Shown here piece by piece: positions 18,693 through 34,116 of a stretch of 42,259 nt of DNA. How positions within the stretch are numbered: the stretch's first letter is position 1; each line of letters begins with the position of its first letter. Position numbers and translations under genes: made by a program. Location of the stretch: assembly GCA_020692205.1 (NCBI GenBank), contig JAIMKV010000018.1, positions 24,594 through 66,852 of the forward strand, in the 5' to 3' direction. This DNA comes from Myxosarcina sp. GA_180221_E-2-1-MAG-40_15 (GTDB taxonomy: Bacteria; Cyanobacteriota; Cyanobacteriia; Cyanobacteriales; Xenococcaceae). The notes beneath the pieces were generated by a model. It was not told where the DNA came from and made no database searches. It worked only from the letters and a program-made list of their open reading frames with translations.

Positions 18693-21686
18693 ATGGAAGA
18701 TACTGCTCCAAATCAATCTGTAATTATCATGACGGGAATGCACCGTTCAGGTACTTCTCTGACCGCATCTTTATTGCAAAGTGCAGGAATTGACGTTGGC
18801 GATCGCTTGATGGGCAAAAATACAGGTAACGACAAGGGGCATTTTGAAGACTTAGATTTTGTTGAATTTCATCAAAGTGTGCTGCGATCCCAGGGAATCA
18901 GCGTGGCAGGATGGACAGAGCAGAATAAGATCCAGGTTCAGCAACAGTATTTAGCTAAGGCTCAAAATTTAATTTTGGCTCGTAAAGAGCTGGCTATTTG
19001 GGGCTGGAAAGATCCCAGAACTACGCTATTTTTGGATTTTTGGTCGCAGTTAATCCCTAATGCCAAATATATTTTTATCTATCGTTCACCTTGGGAAGTA
19101 ATTGACTCGCTGTTTCGTCGCGGCGACGTTGTGTTTCGGGATAATCCCAACTTTGCTGTACAGCAGTGGTGTAACTATAATCAGGCGGTTTTGGATTTTT
19201 ATCAAGATCACCGTGATCAATCTCTATTAATCGAAATCGGTAGCGTCATTCAAAATTGTGATCTGGTTGAGCTGATTAAGCAGAAATTTGACCTAGAATT
19301 GCGATCGCCAGAATCGCTTTATGAACCAACTTTATTTACCGTTGACAGCAATGCTTATTACCGCAAGGCTCTAATTAGCCAGTTTTTCCCTCAAGCTATA
19401 GATATATACAGTCAACTGGAACAACAGGCAGATCGTAGTAGTCCCATTTCCTTAGAACAGCCAGCTGTTGAATTAACCCAAGCTTGGATTCTACAAGACT
19501 GGATTGATCTCAAACGAGCCTTAAGCGAGAAACGTAAGGCAGAAACCGAACTAACTCAAGCACAACAGCAGCTAGAATCACTAACTCAGACACAACAGCA
19601 GCTAGATGCGACTACTGCCCAACTAACTCAGACACAGCAACAGTTAGATGCGACTACTGCCCAACTAACTCAGACACAACAGCAGCTAGATGCGACCACT
19701 ACCGAACTAACTCAGACACAACAGCAGCTACACATAGCCCAAGACCAACTAAGTCAATCTCAAAAACAGCTACACATAGCTCAAATGCAAACTGAGCAAT
19801 ACAAACTTTTAGTCGTGGCGATGGAAAGTAGCAAGTTTTGGAAATTAAGAAAATGGTGGTTCGATGTCAAGCAAAAAAGCAATGTAGCGGCAGTAGACAC
19901 CTTATATCAAAACTATCTAATCTCTCACAATAAATTGCCCTCCTTAGAACAGGCTGCTATGGTGAATATTGATGGCGAGATTCCCGTCAGTGATAATCTT
20001 CAATATCAAAAGTGGTTGGTGGGTAATTATCCCAAATCTGCCGAGATTAAAAAGATGAAGCAAGCCTGCCTAGCAAAGGCTTATCAGCCTCTAATTAGCC
20101 TAATTGTGCCAGTATATAATCCTGATGAAGATTTTCTCCGTCAGGCGATTGAATCAATTTTAGAACAGGCTTATACCAATTGGGAACTATGTTTGGCCGA
20201 TGACTGCTCTAGTAAGCCTCACGTTAAATCTGTACTGGAAGAATATGCCCGACAAGACGATCGCATTAAAGTGGTCTATCGTGCCAAAAATGGTCATATC
20301 TGCCGTACCTCCAATTCTGCTTTAGAACTAGCAACAGGAGAATACATTGCTCTATTAGACCATGATGATTTGTTACCGCCCCATGCTTTGGCTAAGGTAG
20401 TCGAGTTACTCAATGAGCATCCTGAAGCAGATTTTATTTATTCCGACGAGGATAAAGTAGACGAGCAGAACATCCATAAAGATCCTTTTTTTAAGCCAGA
20501 TTGGTGTCCCGATTCATTTTTGGCGCGGATGTATACTTGTCACTTAGGAATTTATCGGCGATCGCTAGTTACGGAAGTAGGCAATTTTCGCGTTGGGTTT
20601 GAAGGTAGCCAAGATTACGATCTGGTGCTGCGAGTTACCGAAAAAACCGACAAAATTTTTCATATTCCTGATGTTCTCTACCACTGGCGGATTCATCGAC
20701 AATCTACTGCTGCCACCTCTGATGCTAAACCTTATGCTGCTAATGCGGCTCAAAAAGCCCTAACCGAGGCAATTGAACGTCGGGGAGAGCCAGGTAAAAT
20801 TACGACTCGCTCTAATTTCCCTGGTGTCTATACGGTTCGTTATCAGATTAAAGAGCCTAAACTAGTTAGCATTATTATCCCTACTAAAGATTTAGCGTCT
20901 ACCTTAGATGTCTGTTTAAAGTCGATTTTTACCCAGACTACTTATCCTAACTATGAGGTAGTGGTTATCGATAATGGCAGCACGGAAGCTGAGACGTTTA
21001 AATGTTTGCAATTTTGGCATCAGCAACAGCCCAAACGCTTCAGTTGTCATGCCTATAATGTGCCGTTTAACTATTCTGAGATTAATAACTATGCAGTAAA
21101 AAAAGCTCAGGGAGATTACCTGCTATTTTTGAATAACGATACTCAAGTTATTACCCCAGATTGGTTAGAAGGAATGGTGGAACAGGCTCAAAGACCGTCG
21201 ATTGGTGCGGTGGGAAGTCTGTTGCTCTATCCTGATGATACGATTCAGCACGCGGGAGTAGTTTTGGGTGTTGGTGGTGTGGCAGGGCATAGCCATAAGC
21301 ATCTGCACGTTTCTCAACCAGGATATATTTCTCAGGCAGCTTCGACTAATAACTACTCAGCAGTAACGGCGGCTTGTTTAATGTGTCGGCGAGAAGTTTT
21401 TGCAGCGGTAGGAGGCTTTGAAGAACAACTGGCGATCGCTTTTAATGATGTCGATCTATGTCTAAAAATTGCTAGTCGTGGCTACCGCAATATATATCTG
21501 CCTCATGTGGTTTTATATCACTATGAATCAAAAAGTCGTGGCTATGAAAATACTCCAGAAAAACAAATGCGCTTTGCAGGAGAAATTAATTATATGAAAG
21601 AAAAATGGCAGCAAATTTGCGATCGCGATCCCTGCTACAATCCTCATCTGACTAAGAACCATGAGGACTACAGCCTCAATGTTTAA
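18693..21686 (+). CDS. Fusion protein: sulfotransferase, tandem-repeat coiled coil, and two GT2 glycosyltransferase domains
   Basis: A 997-residue multi-domain enzyme for a surface glycan. Residues about 8-235 are a sulfotransferase-like domain: the PAPS phosphate loop GMHRSGTSL (15-23), WGWKDPRTT near 103-111, and the 3'-phosphate motif YRSPWEVIDSLFRRGD (130-145). Residues about 275-370 are a Gln/Thr-rich coiled coil built from 14-residue repeats (QQQLDATTAQLTQT). The first GT2 domain starts near 466 (LISLIVPVYNPDEDFL) with its DxD-like DHDD near 556 and a late QDYDLVLR. The second GT2 domain starts near 723 (LVSIIIPTKDLAS) with NNDTQ and DVDLCLK. Both GT2 domains look intact. Such fusions occur in O-antigen or S-layer glycan clusters, so one chain could both extend and sulfate a polymer. 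No membrane segment is evident. Confidence 0.88.
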   Translation: MEDTAPNQSVIIMTGMHRSGTSLTASLLQSAGIDVGDRLMGKNTGNDKGHFEDLDFVEFHQSVLRSQGISVAGWTEQNKIQVQQQYLAKAQNLILARKELAIWGWKDPRTTLFLDFWSQLIPNAKYIFIYRSPWEVIDSLFRRGDVVFRDNPNFAVQQWCNYNQAVLDFYQDHRDQSLLIEIGSVIQNCDLVELIKQKFDLELRSPESLYEPTLFTVDSNAYYRKALISQFFPQAIDIYSQLEQQADRSSPISLEQPAVELTQAWILQDWIDLKRALSEKRKAETELTQAQQQLESLTQTQQQLDATTAQLTQTQQQLDATTAQLTQTQQQLDATTTELTQTQQQLHIAQDQLSQSQKQLHIAQMQTEQYKLLVVAMESSKFWKLRKWWFDVKQKSNVAAVDTLYQNYLISHNKLPSLEQAAMVNIDGEIPVSDNLQYQKWLVGNYPKSAEIKKMKQACLAKAYQPLISLIVPVYNPDEDFLRQAIESILEQAYTNWELCLADDCSSKPHVKSVLEEYARQDDRIKVVYRAKNGHICRTSNSALELATGEYIALLDHDDLLPPHALAKVVELLNEHPEADFIYSDEDKVDEQNIHKDPFFKPDWCPDSFLARMYTCHLGIYRRSLVTEVGNFRVGFEGSQDYDLVLRVTEKTDKIFHIPDVLYHWRIHRQSTAATSDAKPYAANAAQKALTEAIERRGEPGKITTRSNFPGVYTVRYQIKEPKLVSIIIPTKDLASTLDVCLKSIFTQTTYPNYEVVVIDNGSTEAETFKCLQFWHQQQPKRFSCHAYNVPFNYSEINNYAVKKAQGDYLLFLNNDTQVITPDWLEGMVEQAQRPSIGAVGSLLLYPDDTIQHAGVVLGVGGVAGHSHKHLHVSQPGYISQAASTNNYSAVTAACLMCRREVFAAVGGFEEQLAIAFNDVDLCLKIASRGYRNIYLPHVVLYHYESKSRGYENTPEKQMRFAGEINYMKEKWQQICDRDPCYNPHLTKNHEDYSLNV
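19551..19748 (+). repeat. 42-bp in-frame tandem repeats in the fusion gene
   Basis: Units begin CTAACTCAGACACA at 19581, 19623, 19665 and 19707 and are 42 bases long. The first two are almost identical, the third differs at a few bases, and the fourth diverges in its second half. A shorter 30-base unit precedes them at 19551-19580. Each full unit encodes 14 residues, two heptads of the coiled coil. Near identity at DNA level points to recent slippage or unequal recombination, so copy number may vary between strains. Confidence 0.9.
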
Positions 21687-21856
21687 CCCCGAGCATCCCG
21701 TTCAATTGGTATAGACTACGCTGTTGGTTAACTAGCTTTTAGCTTTTAGCTTCTTTAAAGATAATATCCTAATATTTTTCTTTAGCTCTATAGTAGCGAT
21801 CGCCTAACAGGATAATTTAGTCGATAATTAGTTGATTTTCATCGCTCATTAATTAC

Positions 21857-25932: not shown

Positions 25933-28900
25933 ATGAGGACAGATTCAAATCGCGCTTCAAGCTTGATTGCACCTGTAGGAATAATCTTTCAACTTACTGA
26001 TGGAACGATTCAAAGTTGTAATGCAGAGGCGGCAATGATTCTGGGCTATACGGTTGAACAGATTATGGCAACTAACTATCTGGAACTACCCTGGCAGACG
26101 ATTAATCGAGATGGTTCACCTTTGCCTCTGGATACTCATCCAGCGATCGCCTCAATCAATACAGGACAGTCTTATTCTGGTGTTGAAATAGGGTTTTGTC
26201 GACCAGATGGCAACTTGGTTTGGCTGTTGTTAAGCTCTCAGCCAGTATTTCAAAATAATATTAGCCAATCTGGGATAATTACAACTATTCAAGATCTGAC
26301 TAATCATCCCAGCAATTTGGCTCAAGCCCAACCTCAATATTGGCAACCCGAACCAGGCTTTATTGCTTTAGCTGATGCCATTCCAGGAGTATTATATGTT
26401 TTCGATGCGATCGCCAACAAAAATATCTATATTAATTCCCAAACTTATAAATTATTAGGCTATACCCCCGAACAGGTATTAGCAATGGGTGAAGATTTTG
26501 TTTCCCAGGTAATGCACCCTGAAGATTTAGCTAAATTCCCGACACATATAGCAAGGCTAGAAAACTTAAAGCCTGGAGAAGTGTCTCAGTTTGAATATCG
26601 CATGCGGCATCAAAATGGCGAATGGCGCTGGTTTTGTACTCAAGATCGAGTACATAGCCGTACGGCTGAGGGCGATATCGAGTATGTTTTAGGCATTGCC
26701 AGAGATATTAGCGATCGCAAACAAACTGAAGCAGAATTGGCTAAGCGTAACAGTATCTTGCAGTCAATTATTAGCGAAACCACTGATTTTATTTTTGTTA
26801 AAGATCTAGAGGGACGTTATGTAATCGCTAATCAAGCAACTGCGGACTTCTTTGCTATGTCCATGGAAGAGATTTTAGGCAAAGACGATACCGCCTTATT
26901 CGAGCCGAAAATTGCTCGGGCGATTATGGCAGTGGATCGACGGGTAATCGTGGAAGAAGCAACTATTTCCTTTGAAGAAAAAATCCCCTGGCGCAAAACC
27001 ATCCAGCGATCGCTTCTGACTAGTAAATGTCCTTGGCGAGACGATACAGGAAAGATTATTGGCGTAATTGCTATTGCTAGAGATATTACCGAGTTAAAAC
27101 AATCGCAACGACAGCTCAAGGAAAACGAAGCATTACTGCAACTAGCATTAACCAATGCTAAGGCTGGTTCTTGGAACTGGGACATATCAAGTAATGAAGT
27201 GATTTGGTCGTCAGAAAACTATAATTTGTACGGTATCGATCCGCAAATTAAGCCTTTGCAATATCGGGATTGGGAAAACTCAGTCCATCCTGATGATCTA
27301 GACCAAACTAATCGCGAGGTAGCTAAAATTTTGTCACGAGAGTCGGAAGAGTTTCGGACGGAATTTCGCATCATTCATCCCCGCAAAGGAGTTCGCTGGC
27401 TGTTGGGTATTGGGAATGTTACCTGCAACGAAAAGGGCGAGCCAGTGCGCCTAAGTGGACTCAATTTAGATATCAGCGATCTCAAACAAGCCGAACAAGC
27501 TCTCGGTACAAGTAAAAATGAACTCAAATTAATCACTGAAGTTATTCCCCAGCACATTTGGACGGCAACCTCATTTGGCAAAATTGATTACATTAATCGA
27601 CGCTGCCAGGAATATACGGGAGTTTCTTTGGCAGAAATCCAACAACGTGGTTGGGCATCAGTTGTTCATCCAGATGACTTGTTTAATGTTAGAAAAGGCT
27701 GGATCGAAGCAATCAGGTTGGGCAGAAAATGTAATCTGGAGGTGCGTTTACGTAAAGCTGATGGCTCTTATTGTTGGTTTTTGAGTCGAGCTAGACCATT
27801 ACGAAATGAAGAAGGCAGAATTATTAAATGGTATGGTACAAATACCAGCATTGTGCGGATTAAAGAGCTAGAGGAAGAACTACGACAACAAACCGAAGAC
27901 TTAATTCGAGCCAATCAGCTCAAAGACGAATTTCTAGCGATCGTTTCTCATGAACTACGTACGCCACTTAATCCAATTTTAGGCTGGTCACAGTTACTTG
28001 CCTCAGGCAGATTAAGCGCCGAAAAAACAGCCGTGGGAATTAAAACAATTGAACGTAATGCTAAGTTACAAACTCAGCTGATCGACGATCTGCTCGATGT
28101 TTCCCGGATTCTCCGAGGCAAACTAAACTTAAAACAGATGCCACTTAGTTTAGAATCGGTAATTAGATCGGCACTGCAAACTGTACAGTTGACGGCCGAA
28201 GCCAAATCAATTCAAATTGAAACTGTGTTTGAACCCAACATCGGTCGAGTTTCAGGAGATGTTGGTCGATTACAACAGATAGTCTGGAATTTGATGACCA
28301 ATGCGATTAAATTTAGTCCAGAAGGAGGACGAATAATTGTTAAGCTGAATCGGCTTGGCGATCGCGCGCAAATTCAAGTTCAAGATTCGGGTAAAGGAAT
28401 TGAACCAGAGTTTTTACCTTATGTATTTGAGCGTTTTCGGCAGGCAGAAAGTAGCAACACCAGAGAGTATGGTGGTTTAGGCTTAGGACTAGCCATTGTA
28501 CGTCACTTAAGCGAACTACATAATGGCACAGTAGCCGTCGCTAGTCCTGGTTTGGGACAAGGTACTACATTTAGCGTTAACTTACCATTAATGAAAGAAC
28601 CAACAATCGAGCCATTGGACAATACACCAAACAAGGAATCTGTAGAACCTAATCGCTTTAGCGGGGTCAAAATTTTAGTAGTAGAGGATGAGGTAGACTC
28701 ACGAGATATCTTGACCCTGGTTTTAGAACAAGAAGGAGCAGCAGTAACTCCTGTAACCTCGGCACAAGAAGCTATAGAGGTTTTTAACCAATCGACCTTC
28801 GATTTAATGATTAGCGATATTGGCATGCCCGAAACTGATGGCTATAACCTGCTGTCGCAAATTCGTGCTTTGCCTCGGGGAAAAAACCTAGCCGCGATCG

Positions 28901-29022
28901 CGCTGACTGCCTATGCAGGAGAAATCGACCGACAACGTTCCCTCGATGCGGGATTTCAAGAACATCTTGCTAAACCGATTAATATTACCGAGTTGATCAC
29001 TGCTATTGTGCAATTAATTTAA
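25933..29022 (+). CDS. Multi-PAS hybrid sensor histidine kinase with C-terminal receiver
   Basis: A 1029-residue soluble signalling protein. About five PAS domains fill residues 1-655; most end in the DITELKQ/DISDRKQ type linker (for example IARDISDRKQTEAEL, IARDITELKQSQRQL, NLDISDLKQAEQAL). The phosphoacceptor helix has H673 in FLAIVSHELRTPLNPILGW. The ATPase domain shows LMTNAIKFSPEGG, DSGKGIEPEFLPYVFERF and GGLGLGLAIVRHL. A receiver domain (about 912-1029) has phosphoacceptor D962 (MISDIGMPETDGY) and the conserved lysine in HLAKPINI. All catalytic residues are intact. There is no membrane helix, so the signal is probably internal. Its closest relative in the window is the kinase at 31405, with a very similar core, and kaiB starts 262 bases downstream; I infer joint function with the Kai proteins. 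The stop codon lies inside the first copy of the 50-bp inverted repeat. Confidence 0.92.
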   Translation: MRTDSNRASSLIAPVGIIFQLTDGTIQSCNAEAAMILGYTVEQIMATNYLELPWQTINRDGSPLPLDTHPAIASINTGQSYSGVEIGFCRPDGNLVWLLLSSQPVFQNNISQSGIITTIQDLTNHPSNLAQAQPQYWQPEPGFIALADAIPGVLYVFDAIANKNIYINSQTYKLLGYTPEQVLAMGEDFVSQVMHPEDLAKFPTHIARLENLKPGEVSQFEYRMRHQNGEWRWFCTQDRVHSRTAEGDIEYVLGIARDISDRKQTEAELAKRNSILQSIISETTDFIFVKDLEGRYVIANQATADFFAMSMEEILGKDDTALFEPKIARAIMAVDRRVIVEEATISFEEKIPWRKTIQRSLLTSKCPWRDDTGKIIGVIAIARDITELKQSQRQLKENEALLQLALTNAKAGSWNWDISSNEVIWSSENYNLYGIDPQIKPLQYRDWENSVHPDDLDQTNREVAKILSRESEEFRTEFRIIHPRKGVRWLLGIGNVTCNEKGEPVRLSGLNLDISDLKQAEQALGTSKNELKLITEVIPQHIWTATSFGKIDYINRRCQEYTGVSLAEIQQRGWASVVHPDDLFNVRKGWIEAIRLGRKCNLEVRLRKADGSYCWFLSRARPLRNEEGRIIKWYGTNTSIVRIKELEEELRQQTEDLIRANQLKDEFLAIVSHELRTPLNPILGWSQLLASGRLSAEKTAVGIKTIERNAKLQTQLIDDLLDVSRILRGKLNLKQMPLSLESVIRSALQTVQLTAEAKSIQIETVFEPNIGRVSGDVGRLQQIVWNLMTNAIKFSPEGGRIIVKLNRLGDRAQIQVQDSGKGIEPEFLPYVFERFRQAESSNTREYGGLGLGLAIVRHLSELHNGTVAVASPGLGQGTTFSVNLPLMKEPTIEPLDNTPNKESVEPNRFSGVKILVVEDEVDSRDILTLVLEQEGAAVTPVTSAQEAIEVFNQSTFDLMISDIGMPETDGYNLLSQIRALPRGKNLAAIALTAYAGEIDRQRSLDAGFQEHLAKPINITELITAIVQLI

Positions 29023-29069
29023 CCTGAATTCGAGTTAAGTTCATTAAACGGTTGGGGTAGCTTTTAGCT
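29020..29069 (+). repeat. 50-bp inverted repeat, left copy
   Basis: This segment matches the reverse complement of 33373-33422 at 45 of 50 positions. It begins TAACCTGA, the TAA being the stop codon of the upstream hybrid kinase, and ends GGGTAGCTTTTAGCT. The first 20 bases can form a small imperfect hairpin centred on GAATTC. The inner end runs into a degenerate AGCTTTT-type heptamer tract. Together with the right copy it brackets kaiB, kaiC and the second hybrid kinase. Confidence 0.9.
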
Positions 29070-29284
29070 GTGAGCTTCTTAGCTCTTAGATTTTCAATAA
29101 ATTAGCCACTCTCTAACTTCCGCAAGATTATAATTTTAAAGATTAACTTTATAATTGAAAAGTATTTTACTTAATTCATTGATACGCCTCACCCCTTTGC
29201 GTGGTCAATTCTCGTCTCCTAAATCATCAAAACTTGGCTTTAATAATCATGACTGGTGTTGAGTGATTTTTTAAAACTTTTTTA

Positions 29285-29578
29285 ATGTCTCAAAAACTGA
29301 TTTTGAAACTATATGTTAGTGGCAATACACTGAGGAGTCGACAGGCGATCGCTAACTTACAGACATTTTGCGATCGCGAACTGCCAGATAATTGTGCTGT
29401 GGAAATTATCGATCTGATCGAGTTTCCTGAAATTGCCGAATTAGAGAAGATTTTGATTACACCAACTTTAGTTAAAGTATCTCCTGAACCTCAAGAAAGG
29501 ATCATCGGCGATCTATCTGATACCAAAGTTTTGTCTTTGGTTTTAAATCTTCCTTCTCATTTTCCAACAACAAAGTAA
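29285..29578 (+). CDS. kaiB: KaiB-family circadian clock protein
   Basis: Thioredoxin-like, fold-switching clock protein that binds the CI ring of KaiC. The 97-residue sequence shows the family pattern: LILKLYVSGNTLRSRQAIANL, then IDLIEFPEIAELEKILITPTLVKV, then ERIIGDLSD. The ITPTLVKV and GDLSD blocks match KaiB of Synechococcus closely. The C-terminal acidic tail of classic KaiB (about 102 residues) is shorter and altered here (LNLPSHFPTTK). The divergent helix region (RSRQAIANLQTFCDRE) suggests a KaiB2/KaiB3-type paralogue, not the central KaiB1. It starts with ATG without a clear ribosome-binding site. kaiC follows after a 279-bp spacer, and no kaiA is nearby. Confidence 0.9.
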   Translation: MSQKLILKLYVSGNTLRSRQAIANLQTFCDRELPDNCAVEIIDLIEFPEIAELEKILITPTLVKVSPEPQERIIGDLSDTKVLSLVLNLPSHFPTTK

Positions 29579-29585
29579 AAATTTC

Positions 29586-29611
29586 TGAGCATAAATACTG
29601 AGTATAAATAC
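29586..29611. repeat. 13-bp tandem direct repeat downstream of kaiB
   Basis: TGAGCATAAATAC (29586-29598) is followed at once by TGAGTATAAATAC (29599-29611), differing at one base. It begins 7 bases after the kaiB stop codon, at the head of the 279-bp spacer before kaiC. A regulator-binding site or the start of a kaiC promoter are possibilities; nothing further is known. Confidence 0.6.
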
Positions 29612-29857
29612 TTTATTTTTCCGTACCCAGGTTAAATTTCCACAGAACAGATAAGGTACTAAAATCTTATTAACGTTAGTTCAACAACTAAACCTTGAAG
29701 GACATAATGCTAAACCATTAGAAACAAAGCAACTATGTATTCTCGCTAATGTGTTTATTATTTCCTGCCTCGCAATTTTTTAGCTTTATTTTTGATCTAG
29801 CTCGCGTTTAATTATTTGCACCAATATTTATTAAAAGTCAAGCAGAAATATTAAATA

Positions 29858-31372
29858 ATGACTCAAGCTCAACCAGATCTGCTAGCTAAAATAGCTACAG
29901 GAATTCCCGGTTTTGATGTGTTTTCCGAAGGAGGATTACCAGAAGGAAGAAGTACCCTAATTGCTGGCACGGCGGGAAGTGGCAAAACGATCTTTGCTAA
30001 TCAATTTTTAATTGAAGGAATTAAACGGGGGGAAAATGGAGTTTTCGTAACTTTTGAAGAATCACCTCAGATGTTACGCAAAAATATGCGGGGTTTTAAT
30101 TGGGATATTCAACAATGGGAAGCAGAAGGTAAATGGATGTTTGTCGATGCTTCTCCTGCCGATCACAATCTGCCGTTAATTAGTGGTGAATACGATTTAG
30201 AGCCGTTAATTTCCCGTCTCAAACACGCAATTAACCAGGTTAATGCTAAGAGAGTAGCGATAGATTCATTAAGTTCAGTTTTTAGCTATGTGCCAAATAT
30301 GGCTCAGGTTAGAGCTATCTTATTTAAGCTAGCTCAGATTCTTAGAGAACTGGAAATTACGGCAGTCTTAACCTGCGAACGCACTATCGATTATGGAGCA
30401 ATTAGCCGCTACGGAGTTGAAGAGTTTGTGGCTGATAATGTAATTATTATGCGCAATGCTCTACTCAAAGAGAAACGCCGACGCACTATCGAAATTCTCA
30501 AGTATCGGGGAGTCTCTCATCAACATGGCGAGTTTCCTTTGACGATTATTCCCCATCAAGGCATTGTGGTAATCCCTTTTGCGACAGATGTTCTCAAAAG
30601 CAAATCTTCTAGTCAGCGAGTTACTACAGGAAACGAAGAACTAAATCGCATGTGTGGCGGAGGCTGGTTTAAAGGCTCAATAATTCTCGTATCGGGGGCA
30701 ACGGGTACGGGGAAAACCCTCATGACAACTGAATTTATCGACGGAGGCATAAAAAATGACGAAAAATGTCTCTTGTTTGCCTTGGAAGAAAGTCACGAAC
30801 AGCTTTTGCGCAATGCTTTGGGTTGGGGAATAGACTATGAACAAATGGAAACCGCAGGCAAATTAAAAATTATCTGTCGCTATCCCGAAACTATGGGACT
30901 AGAATCTCATTTTGTTAAGATGAGAGAAGAGATCGAGGAATTTAAACCCCAACGGGTTGCAATTGACAGTATTTCTGCCTTAGAGCGAATTTCTAGCTCT
31001 AAAGGATTTCGCGAATTTTTACTTACCTTAAATATTTTATTTAAAGAAAAGGGAATTACGACTTTGTGTACAGCTAATACAGCTAATTCACTGGAGAGTG
31101 ATTCGATTACACAATCAAATATTTCCACCAATACAGATTTAATTATTCTCTTGCGCTATGTTGAAATATATGGCGAGATCAAGCGGGGGTTAGCAATTCT
31201 TAAGATGCGTGGTTCTCAACATGATAAAAATATTCGTGAAATCTCGATTGATCAAAACGGTATGTCTATAGGTCAAACATTTCGCCACATTGTGGGTATA
31301 CTGTCAGGAAATCTGACTTACATTGATGCGAACCGAATCGATCGCTTAGACGACTTACAAACTGAGATATAA
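29858..31372 (+). CDS. kaiC: KaiC-family double-domain ATPase/autokinase, KaiC3-like
   Basis: A 504-residue RecA/RAD55-type protein with both CI and CII domains. CI has Walker A GTAGSGKT (37-44) and the catalytic pair E67-E68 (VTFEESP). CII has GATGTGKT (280-287) and E310-E311 (ALEESHEQ). The dual phosphorylation site is kept as S423-T424 (SNISTNTD), with T418 at the position of Thr426 of Synechococcus KaiC; the Asp that follows it there is Gln here. LLRYVEIYGEIKRGLAILKM and KMRGSQHDKNIRE also match the family. The protein lacks most of the C-terminal A-loop/tail that KaiA binds in KaiC1 (it ends IDRLDDLQTEI), so it probably works without KaiA1. These features, including S/T numbering, agree with KaiC3 as I recall it; assignment to KaiC2 is less likely. 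A hybrid kinase starts 32 bases downstream. Confidence 0.92.
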   Translation: MTQAQPDLLAKIATGIPGFDVFSEGGLPEGRSTLIAGTAGSGKTIFANQFLIEGIKRGENGVFVTFEESPQMLRKNMRGFNWDIQQWEAEGKWMFVDASPADHNLPLISGEYDLEPLISRLKHAINQVNAKRVAIDSLSSVFSYVPNMAQVRAILFKLAQILRELEITAVLTCERTIDYGAISRYGVEEFVADNVIIMRNALLKEKRRRTIEILKYRGVSHQHGEFPLTIIPHQGIVVIPFATDVLKSKSSSQRVTTGNEELNRMCGGGWFKGSIILVSGATGTGKTLMTTEFIDGGIKNDEKCLLFALEESHEQLLRNALGWGIDYEQMETAGKLKIICRYPETMGLESHFVKMREEIEEFKPQRVAIDSISALERISSSKGFREFLLTLNILFKEKGITTLCTANTANSLESDSITQSNISTNTDLIILLRYVEIYGEIKRGLAILKMRGSQHDKNIREISIDQNGMSIGQTFRHIVGILSGNLTYIDANRIDRLDDLQTEI

Positions 31373-31404
31373 CAAGTGCGATCGCGAAGTAACTAAAGAC
31401 GAAA

Positions 31405-33354
31405 ATGCCAGAAGAAATAAATAATTTACCAGCATCTTCACCCAAAACAAAAGTGACCTCACAAAGCATTGAGGTGTTGATTTTAGCTGATTCGACTTCA
31501 GTCGCAAATTCAATTGCTGCGGTTTTAGAACCAGCCAAATGGCAGATTAACTGGCAACAGGCAGCAAATAAACTTGAATATCGCGATCGCCTTAAGGCAA
31601 AATTAGATTTAATTCTCTGGGATGCGCAGGCTAGCCTGGAGTTAACCGAAGCGATCGCTCTTATATTTGCTCAAGACTCAGACATTCCTGTAATCGTCGT
31701 TAATGGGGAAGCCAGTATTCCCGCAGCAGTAGCAGCGATTAAAGCGGGTGCAGCTGATTATATTCCTGTAACAGAAATGGAGCGATTACCAAACGCGATC
31801 GCCAAAGCGATTACCGAACCATCTTGGCTTTGTCTTCACTCGATATGTGCAACCCAAACCGAACAACAGCTGCAAAAACTAATTACCGAAAATGCTGATG
31901 GTATTTTGGTTGTCAATCAGCAGGGAATTGTCGAGTTGGTTAATCCCGCAGCATTAAAACTCTTAGGCAAATCTAGTGCCGAATTAATTGGCGAGTCTTT
32001 AGGTTTGCCTGTAGTTAATGGTGATTTTTTAGAAGTAGATATTCCTTTGAATTCAAGCGAAATTCTCGTGGCTCAAATGCGCGTTAGTCAGATTCAATGG
32101 CAGGGTGCAAATGCTTTTGTGGTTTCTTTACGAGATATAACTAAACTTAAGCAGGCAGAAGAAAATATTGCCTTACTCCTAGAAGAAGCTCAATCTGCCA
32201 GCCGCGCTAAAGATGAATTTCTGGCGGTTTTGTCTCATGAATTGAGAACGCCTTTAAACCCGATTGTCGGCTGGTCACAACTATTAGTTAAGGGAAATCT
32301 TGCCGAATCTCAAATTAAAAAGGGTGCAGAAATTATTCAGCGTAATGCGATGTTGCAAGCTCAATTAATTGGCGACATTTTAGATATTTCGCGAATTATT
32401 CAGGGCAAGCTGAAGTTAAAAGCAACCCCCGTCGATTTAGCTGGTATTATTCATGATGCTTTGGAAACGATAAGTTTGGCGGCACAAGCTAAATCAATTC
32501 AAATCAATACCGACTTAGATGCAGATCTTGGTATGGTTCAAGGCGATCCGACTCGTCTCCAGCAGGTAATCTGGAATTTGCTTTCTAATGCGGTTAAGTT
32601 TACTCCCAATGGTGGCAGGGTAGAAGTTCGTTTGACTTCGGTCAACACATTAGTTCAAGAAAATAATCTAGAAACTAAATTAGCTTTTCCTTACGCTCAA
32701 ATTCAAATTGAAGATACAGGCAAAGGAATCGCTGCCGAATTTCTCCCCCAGGTTTTTGATTATTTTCGTCAGGCTCAAAGCACCAAAAGCAGAACTGAAG
32801 GTGGATTAGGATTAGGATTAGCAATTGTCCGTCGTTTAGTTGAACTCCATGGAGGAGAAGTAACCGCCAGTAGTCCCGGGTTAGGTTCAGGAGCAACTTT
32901 TACGATTAATCTCCCCATAGTTAATCATCAAGAGCAATCAGCAGCAGAAAATCAAGAGTGCCATGGCGGCAATCTTGATGGGGTCAAGATCCTAATTGTC
33001 GATGATCATGATAGTTCTCGAGATTTACTAGGTTTAATTTTAGAACCTGAAGGTGCAGAGACTAAGAGTGTGGCATCGGCAACAGAAGCCTTGGCAGTAA
33101 TCGAGCAGTTTTTGCCCGATATATTAATCAGCGATCTGGGAATGCCTGAAATAGATGGCTATGAGCTAATTCAGCGCATCAAAAAATTACCGTTAATGGC
33201 AAATATAAACGCGATCGCCTTAAGTGGTTATGCTTCAGAACCAGATCGCCAAAAAAGCCTTACCGTAGGATTCGATCTGCATCTCAATAAACCGATTGAC
33301 GTTGATATTTTTATTCAGGCTGTTACTCAATTGGCAAAGCCAAGTCTAGATTAA
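31405..33354 (+). CDS. Hybrid sensor histidine kinase with N-terminal degenerate receiver
   Basis: A 649-residue soluble kinase starting 32 bases after kaiC, so almost surely co-transcribed. Residues about 20-140 resemble a receiver: the strand-3 motif LDLILWDAQ gives a possible phosphoacceptor D73, but the usual acidic pair is reduced to LAD and the conserved Lys is replaced (AADYIPVTEMERL), so it may be a pseudo-receiver. A PAS domain (about 155-255) follows, ending VVSLRDITKLKQAEE. H278 lies in FLAVLSHELRTPLNPIVGW. The ATPase boxes are LLSNAVKFTPNGG, DTGKGIAAEFLPQVFDYF and GGLGLGLAIVRRL. A C-terminal receiver (about 530-649) has D577 (LISDLGMPEIDGYE) and LNKPIDV. The kinase core resembles that of the kinase at 25933. 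An output or input kinase for the adjacent KaiBC pair is the natural inference. Confidence 0.92.
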   Translation: MPEEINNLPASSPKTKVTSQSIEVLILADSTSVANSIAAVLEPAKWQINWQQAANKLEYRDRLKAKLDLILWDAQASLELTEAIALIFAQDSDIPVIVVNGEASIPAAVAAIKAGAADYIPVTEMERLPNAIAKAITEPSWLCLHSICATQTEQQLQKLITENADGILVVNQQGIVELVNPAALKLLGKSSAELIGESLGLPVVNGDFLEVDIPLNSSEILVAQMRVSQIQWQGANAFVVSLRDITKLKQAEENIALLLEEAQSASRAKDEFLAVLSHELRTPLNPIVGWSQLLVKGNLAESQIKKGAEIIQRNAMLQAQLIGDILDISRIIQGKLKLKATPVDLAGIIHDALETISLAAQAKSIQINTDLDADLGMVQGDPTRLQQVIWNLLSNAVKFTPNGGRVEVRLTSVNTLVQENNLETKLAFPYAQIQIEDTGKGIAAEFLPQVFDYFRQAQSTKSRTEGGLGLGLAIVRRLVELHGGEVTASSPGLGSGATFTINLPIVNHQEQSAAENQECHGGNLDGVKILIVDDHDSSRDLLGLILEPEGAETKSVASATEALAVIEQFLPDILISDLGMPEIDGYELIQRIKKLPLMANINAIALSGYASEPDRQKSLTVGFDLHLNKPIDVDIFIQAVTQLAKPSLD

Positions 33355-33372
33355 ACCTAATAATTGCCTAAA

Positions 33373-33422
33373 AGCTAAAAGCTACCCTAACCGTTCAATG
33401 ATCTTAACCCGAACTCAGGTTA
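33373..33422 (-). repeat. 50-bp inverted repeat, right copy
   Basis: Read on the reverse strand this copy begins TAACCTGA one base after the stop codon of the reverse gene at 33424-34116 and ends GGGTAGCTTTTAGCT, continuing as AGCTTTT heptamers. It differs from the left copy (29020-29069) at five positions, four of them transitions. The TTAACC/GGTTAA arms at its outer end pair better than in the left copy, so a small hairpin is kept. It also lies 19 bases after the stop of the second hybrid kinase. Confidence 0.9.
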
Positions 33423-33423
33423 A

Positions 33424-34116
33424 TTAAATATCTGCCGCAGAGCCATCTAATTCTTGGCTTGGCTGAATGTTATCTCGTTCAATTATTTGATACTTCGTTG
33501 AAGTATAAGAAACTGCACTCAAACACAAGATCAATCCTGCCGCAATTGCGGTACTGGTAGCGAGTTGGCGGTAACGGCGATCGCCTACTATTTTTTGCCC
33601 TAATTTTTGCAGACGCTGTTTTGGTGTCTGTTTGCTGTTCGATTCTGACCAAAGCTGTTGTTGTTGCTTGGCTAGTAATTTATCAATTCGTTCTGGGGTA
33701 ATGTTTTCTAATCTCTCTTCTTGAAGAGCTTCAACTCTTTCTCGCAACACAATTAAATTACTAATTCGATATTTAAAGCCAGTAAGATCGACTAAAACTT
33801 TATCTAAATCATTGACTAGAAAATCTAATTCTGTTTCTGTTTCTTCAATCTGCGATCGCGCAGCAGATCTAAAAGGTAAGCCCTCAAATGAACCTACCTG
33901 CAACTCTACCATAGATGAATTAAGATAACCTTGAGTAGAGATTTCATTTTCCAGCAATTTTGCCTGTTTTTTTAAACGTTCCATTCTCTCGGGTAACGCA
34001 TTCAATTTATCTTGAGCCTTATTGGCTTCTTTGGCAAACGCGAGACAAAGTTCGATTAGCGGAATTAAATTAGCGATTTGACGTTGAATATTTTTTGGAC
34101 TAGTTTTTTTTTTCAT
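33424..34116 (-). CDS. Hypothetical coiled-coil protein with one C-terminal membrane helix
   Basis: A 230-residue protein I do not recognise. Residues about 1-165 are highly charged and helical, with heptad-like segments (ANKAQDKLNALPERMERLKK, ERVEALQEERLENITPERI). One hydrophobic segment near 186-207 (LATSTAIAAGLILCLSAVSY) is preceded by basic residues (KIVGDRRYRQ), so the N-terminus is probably cytoplasmic and the short acidic C-terminus outside. The ATG at 34116 is followed by a run of Lys codons. The gene converges on the second hybrid kinase and ends next to the right inverted-repeat copy. The gene for the DUF2294 protein lies upstream on the same strand (172-bp gap). Confidence 0.7.
   Translation of the reverse strand: MKKKTSPKNIQRQIANLIPLIELCLAFAKEANKAQDKLNALPERMERLKKQAKLLENEISTQGYLNSSMVELQVGSFEGLPFRSAARSQIEETETELDFLVNDLDKVLVDLTGFKYRISNLIVLRERVEALQEERLENITPERIDKLLAKQQQQLWSESNSKQTPKQRLQKLGQKIVGDRRYRQLATSTAIAAGLILCLSAVSYTSTKYQIIERDNIQPSQELDGSAADI

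Follow-up and report, generated by a model that had tools for sequence, protein, structure and literature searches.

Inverted arms around a kaiB-kaiC-kinase block of Myxosarcina are probably two partial copies of a dispersed MITE family

A stretch of 42,259 nucleotides from Myxosarcina sp. GA_180221_E-2-1-MAG-40_15 (contig JAIMKV010000018.1; hereafter the window) carries kaiB, kaiC and a hybrid histidine kinase gene between two inverted repeat arms. The arms are, with high probability, two separate partial copies, namely the 5' ends, of a non-autonomous family of miniature inverted-repeat transposable elements (MITEs); nothing ties the copies to the clock genes, nor suggests that the block moves or inverts. 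Terminal inverted repeats (TIRs) and target duplications were observed, as were a burst of near-identical copies in the relative G006 and copies absent or broken at the sites of relatives. Among the genomes searched, strong-scoring matches were confined to this cyanobacterial family. The tempting reading of a mobile or switchable clock cassette is removed by these results; its place is taken by a MITE family that has defined ends and a host range and duplicates its target.

The sequence-only reading of the window had reported that 29020-29069 and the reverse complement of 33373-33422 agree at 45 of 50 positions. This inverted repeat is real. Extended to 29013-29074 and 33368-33429, the arms are alike at 53 of 62 positions (85%), with a longest exact run of 15 nt; chance alone would give about 2e-12 pairs of this quality in the window. 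The runner-up match of the repeat 50-mer inside the window reached 30 of 50. Each arm starts with an imperfect palindrome, TTAACCTGAATTCGAGTTAA in copy 1 (29019-29038, forward strand) and TTAACCTGAGTTCGGGTTAA in copy 2 (33404-33423, reverse strand; matching the pattern exactly on one strand and with 1 mismatch on the other), and the palindrome pattern gave four strand matches in the window against 0.02 expected. Copy 1 spans 29019-29067 on the forward strand and comprises the TIR, a linker and the start of a heptamer tract; the heptamer-like tract AGCTTTTAGCTGTGAGCTTCTTAGCTCT occupies 29059-29086 on the same strand, and its motif is dispersed in the genome in its own right. Copy 2 spans 33375-33423 in the opposite orientation, on the reverse strand. 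The arms do lie at gene ends, as had been claimed. The TAA at 29020-29022, inside the palindrome of copy 1, is the stop codon of the upstream kinase, and copy 2 follows immediately on the stop codon of the reverse-strand gene 33424-34116, that codon (33424-33426) falling one base outside the arm 33373-33422. An Rfam scan of 28900-33600 gave nothing up to E=1.

The genome from which the window comes (G000) comprises 4.87 Mb in 131 contigs. A search of it with copy 1 recovered copy 2 and one more copy, on C115, besides weaker matches, most of which cover the heptamer tract alone (approximately query positions 46-71). The palindrome pattern, with up to 3 mismatches allowed, was found 17 times on the forward and 17 times on the reverse strand, versus 3 and 2 times for the backwards control. 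A 49-nt sequence model (R1), built from 11 own copies, yielded 13 strong matches, all at E≤2.1e-11 and spread over ten contigs (the next match stood at 0.001), copies 1 and 2 scoring 51.6 and 61.5 bits, respectively. Eleven of the 13, both window copies among them, had served to build R1; the independent matches in G000 are only C58:33010 and C39:472, and those in other genomes are all independent. R1 matched 42 of the 60 genomes searched at E≤0.1, the own genome included, with the most matches (58) in G010. A best E≤1e-7 was obtained in 11 of 13 genomes of the genus and in 4 of 14 from other genera of the family (15 of 27 together, own included) and in none of the 33 genomes from other families of the order, whose best match was 3.8e-5; matches at this order level may be due to chance. 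By hand arithmetic, 13 copies in 4.87 Mb give about 0.14 expected pairs within 4.4 kb, half of them inverted, so that one inverted pair 4.3 kb apart is not remarkable. A dispersed 3'-end repeat present twice by chance, the interpretation which the sequence-only reading had favoured, was thus the right one, given the 13 strong own copies and the spread within the family, although the end of a transposable element in it went unrecognised. A resemblance that it had seen in the spacer at 21683-21750 did not survive: it is limited to the heptamer tract, the match without the tract was equalled by 136 of 1000 shuffles, and R1 was silent there at E≤1.

What, then, is the repeat a part of? We read 73 copies with their flanks, namely all 13 strong own copies and 60 from the best listed in relatives (20 of 34 matches in G006, 13 of 33 in G007, 8 of 19 in G002, 7 of 26 in G011, 7 of 17 in G012, 2 of 6 in G016, 2 of 27 in G022 and 1 of 17 in G004; none from G001, G003, G005 or G010). 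Fifteen of the G006 copies are nearly identical; these elements, 159-179 bp long, begin with AACCTGAGTTCGGG and end in the inverse of this start, CCCGAACTCAGGTT, and vary chiefly in the count of internal heptamers. The TIRs of the full element are AACCTGAGTTCGGG, and a heptamer tract of variable length lies inside. A 3' TIR (up to 3 mismatches, within 600 nt) was present in 29 of the 73 copies. That of L051, at 540 nt, is probably a chance match. Without it, 28 elements remain, with lengths of 133-261 bp overall and of 159-179 bp in 22 cases. An exact flanking direct repeat of 4-5 nt accompanied 22 of the 29 copies with a 3' TIR and 2 of the 44 without, the latter being scored at the best chance position. 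Taken over the family, the element has TIRs at both ends and a target-site duplication, is short and multicopy, and contains no internal transposase gene, as MITEs do. In the relatives, the repeat forms the 5' end of complete MITEs, most of them 159-179 bp long.

In the own genome, TIRs at both ends were seen only at C39:348-519, the one clearly full copy, which is flanked by the duplication AAAT; the window copies are 5' ends only. Neither copy 1 (L056) nor copy 2 (L049) has a 3' TIR within 600 nt, the best candidate showing 5 mismatches in 14 positions in each case. A search of G000 for 3' ends (up to 3 mismatches) returned a single clear one; a further 11 matches were ends of 5' type or of unclear type. 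With about 13 5' ends to one clear 3' end, solo 5' ends are the usual state in G000.

Our preferred explanation is as follows. The full element makes a target duplication of 4-5 bp and is presumably moved in trans by a DDE transposase. Copies land between genes. Many would then lose the part beyond the heptamer tract, probably by 3' loss through the tract; the surviving 5' ends lie mostly just behind stop codons, at times supplying the stop codon itself. By this account, it is by chance that two of the approximately 13 copies, in opposite orientation and 4.3 kb from each other, flank kaiB, kaiC and the kinase.

Several observations weigh against this explanation. Only C39:348-519 is clearly full length in G000, so that the identification of the window copies as MITE ends depends mostly on the relatives. 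An autonomous partner was sought and not found: the TIR pattern (up to 2 mismatches) was scanned in G006, G007 and G010, and inspection by eye of the open reading frames (ORFs) around 20 TIR sites (G006, G007) and at seven own loci showed no transposase between paired TIRs. A C-terminal fragment resembling IS701-family transposases lies at L296:2119-2406 in G007, about 280 nt inside a solo 3'-type TIR, and may be what is left of the autonomous element. In G005 a long frame of IS701 type was examined within 3.2 kb of sequence, which held no such TIR. The sites of G006 elements in a close relative are ambiguous, since only one of three lacks both MITE and heptamers there, and 9 nt near its junction are missing too. 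Nine joined G006 sites were queried in eight genomes, and three junction-crossing matches in G003 were read. At the L278 site, the one just mentioned, both sides meet in G003 without the MITE; at the L284 site a 44-nt stretch with heptamers stands in its place; and at the L281 site the right side matches, the left matches poorly, and heptamers are in place with no TIR near. The L284 and L281 sites may be remnants rather than empty sites. Among the other sites, matches to the L276 site cross the junction by 17 nt but represent a dispersed tandem repeat, a few short matches to the L283 site cross it by 5-6 nt, and the remaining sites were matched on one side or nowhere. The tandem repeat at the L276 site (AAGTAAC-type units and flank, query 221-347) has many matches in G011 and other genomes. 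G003 thus carries, in L357 and L369, a heptamer tract without MITE ends at two of the three G006 MITE sites; such tracts may be left by full elements or may be their landing places.

Two further points of this kind, on site 1 and on rearranged spacers, come from G012, the nearest relative found with the kai locus (86% identity in kaiC). Its site 1 reads AATTAATTCAGTTAGGGTAG, followed by a heptamer-like stretch. Keeping GTTAGGGTAG and this stretch, it looks like a remnant and not a clean empty site, and we read it as a putative remnant from which the first ~34 nt were deleted; were it one, the insertion at site 1 would predate the split. The G012 orthologue of the upstream kinase, read in frame, runs 3 codons further, because the stop codon in the window lies in the element. 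Site 2 of G012 holds a different spacer with a hairpin of its own, CTTTTGAGGAAACCTCAAAAG (L222:9354-9374), in the same convergent gap as window copy 2. The sites orthologous to L050, L051, L052, L053, L055 and L057 hold no intact copy in G012, that of L051 holding fragments such as TAACCTG, as judged on one alignment alone. One further copy is shared between the two genomes (L048/L256, 45 of 49 positions alike). No match was reported for L047, and for L058 and L059 there was none in G012 besides repeats. Over these own sites the spacers are rearranged relative to G012, and gain and loss do not separate cleanly. In the neighbourhood of L058 (G000:C31, query 1458-1512) we noted a second, G+C-rich dispersed repeat that occurs at dozens of places in G002, G012 and G004; DNA resembling it is also found at L222:4300-4700.

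The position of the copies relative to genes raises a second question, why the solo 5' ends persist. ORFs of at least 100 amino acids were called mechanically, and a copy was counted when a gene running towards it had its stop codon no more than 60 nt from the 5' end of the copy. Such a stop was found for 33 of the 45 copies without a 3' end versus 5 of the 28 full-length copies (Fisher 4e-6), full length here meaning 26 copies by rule plus L231 and L260 with their 3-mismatch 3' TIRs; with the rule-defined set on its own, the two fractions become 35 of 47 and 3 of 26. The contrast persisted when G006 was left out (29/40 versus 4/13, p=0.01) and was not significant in the own genome alone (9/12 versus 0/1, p=0.31). 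The stop codon lies inside the TIR itself in six copies (L052, L056, L244, L255, L268 and L287). R1 was built from own 5' halves and therefore under-samples copies that have kept the 3' half alone; of six solo 3'-type ends viewed by eye in G007, two (L297 and L307) abut a stop codon.

One account of this pattern is that selection keeps the solo 5' ends, the MITE end having been co-opted as a portable hairpin in the 3' untranslated region (3'-UTR) that stabilises or ends messages behind stop codons, a parallel for which is given for the SPRITE repeat of pneumococcus in sections of PMC3049150. This would add to the MITE explanation and not replace it. The stop-codon enrichment, the excess of 5' over 3' ends in G000, and the ability of the palindrome to fold into a hairpin with a stem of ~8 bp all speak for it. 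Several results speak against it. Folding of the two window copies was unremarkable compared with shuffles (z of -0.96 and -0.88). No covariation was found: of the 45 copies without a 3' end, 42 were used (L235, L239 and L240, weak or late-starting matches, were left out), 0 pairs were changed on both sides, and stem pairing was 85.7% as compared with a shuffled mean of 86.5%, a value reached by 500 of 500 shuffles. There is no T-tract, the longest T run in the 18 nt after the palindrome being 2 in 13 of 13 own copies. Moreover, site 1 appears to have lost the hairpin in G012, and the own-genome enrichment does not by itself reach significance. Neutral edge protection, in which deletions entering the gene are purged and the gene-side half survives, predicts an identical pattern and is an equal candidate. 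We consider selection for the hairpin possible though doubtful. An extended form, in which the insertion brings a stop codon (TTAACC) and a hairpin at once, the remainder is shed through the heptamer tract, and selection retains the 5' end behind stops across the whole cyanobacterial family as a portable 3'-UTR module, seems to us unlikely. A Rho-independent terminator was rejected on the short T runs and the unremarkable folding. The seldom occurrence of full-length copies at stops, as against the solo 5' ends that are mostly there, makes this a concrete case in which to test 3'-UTR co-option against neutral edge protection.

The genes enclosed by the arms agree by their Pfam matches with what had been read from the letters. 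All lie on the forward strand and outside the repeat: a kaiB-type gene at 29285-29578 (PF07689), a kaiC-type gene at 29858-31372 (PF06745), and a hybrid histidine kinase at 31405-33354 (Response_reg in two stretches, PAS, HisKA, HATPase_c). The upstream gene that ends in copy 1 (25933-29022, forward strand) encodes a PAS-rich hybrid histidine kinase (Pfam PAS families, HisKA, HATPase_c, Response_reg). The 230-amino-acid gene whose stop abuts copy 2 (33424-34116, reverse strand) has no Pfam match; its G012 relative, in the same place, shows 71% identity. No transposase and no recombinase was found by Pfam among the block genes. In G012 the gene order matches that of the window (kinase, kaiB, kaiC, kinase, facing 230-amino-acid gene, mpsC) in the same orientation, and R1 found no copy in its kai stretch at E≤1. 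At the same threshold no copy was found in the examined kai neighbourhoods of G013, G016 and G010, the G010 stretch being 3.6 kb.

That the arms are borders of a transferable kaiB-kaiC-kinase cassette, a possibility raised in the sequence-only reading, has the geometry in its favour and nothing else: the arms are inverted, stand at gene ends and run inward. A count of copies over the whole genome had been set beforehand as a check, and the many copies elsewhere with no kai link count against a cassette, as do the G012 block standing without intact copies at either place, the lack of copies in all four relatives' kai neighbourhoods, and the absence of a transposase among the block genes. A cassette is therefore very improbable. 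We regard programmed or homologous inversion of the block, for which a 62-nt inverted repeat of 85% identity could be a substrate, as just as remote: an exact run of 15 nt is short for homologous recombination, there is no recombinase among the block genes, and the orientation in G012 is identical. A composite transposon, with two copies moving the DNA between them, was rejected, as G012 has the block without intact copies.

Some further observations concern these loci. The spacer between the upstream kinase and kaiB is ~600 nt longer in G012 than in the window, with a make-up like the G+C-rich repeat DNA by eye. The relative of the window-type kaiC in G010:C344 (L225) is in two pieces, with one in-frame TAG reported. 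The own genome has a second kaiC at G000:C23:35810-37282, of a type present in all 13 genomes of the genus, and 3.4 kb beyond it, at C23:40660-40684, the heptamer word recurs in a terminator-like hairpin, AAGGTAGCTTTTAGCTACCTT. A scan of genome contigs with the kinase gave only distant relatives among the 80 listed matches and was of no use for synteny. Elsewhere in the window, tandem repeats with a spacing of 30-42 nt occupy 19545-19772, inside the glycosyltransferase fusion gene at 18693-21686.

As far as literature searches reach, the element belongs to a known kind, within which it forms a new family. No description of it was found in the literature on cyanobacterial MITEs, dispersed repeats, MITEs and stop codons, or MITEs in Pleurocapsa and Xenococcus (titles and abstract starts), and the TIR letters met no match in cyanobacterial work judged by title. 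An earlier description is possible; Elhai 2008 reportedly treats very small mobile repeats in cyanobacterial genomes, to judge by its title. REP elements and REPINs make no target duplication and are mobilised by RAYT, and identity with them was rejected, target duplications being present here. As far as described in parts of PMC3116915, PMC3733652 and PMC2817692, REP elements and REPINs resemble the repeat in being extragenic palindromes and differ in that the full-length elements here have TIRs at both ends and a target duplication; REPs usually exceed 100 copies according to a section of PMC2817692, and the element here reaches 58 matches per genome. With bacterial MITEs, including Nezha of cyanobacteria as portrayed in passages of PMC10969869, it shares short length, TIRs, target duplications, and a non-coding and intergenic nature; the likeness to Nezha is one of description, and here an autonomous partner was not found. 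SPRITE of Streptococcus pneumoniae is, like the copies here, a short interspersed hairpin repeat close behind coding sequences, suggested in sections of PMC3049150 to be co-opted as a terminator; its stem there measures 18 bp, a uridine-rich tract is present and a duplication is not established, whereas here the stem is ~8 bp, a T-tract is lacking, and duplications are clear in full-length copies. BrickBuilt of Porphyromonas gingivalis, in the portions of PMC4596501 that describe it, is, like the element here, an intergenic MITE with small inverted repeats and a tandem repeat between leader and tail; its unit is 23 nt and it lies 49-591 nt from coding sequences, whereas the unit here is 7 nt and the truncated copies often abut stop codons.

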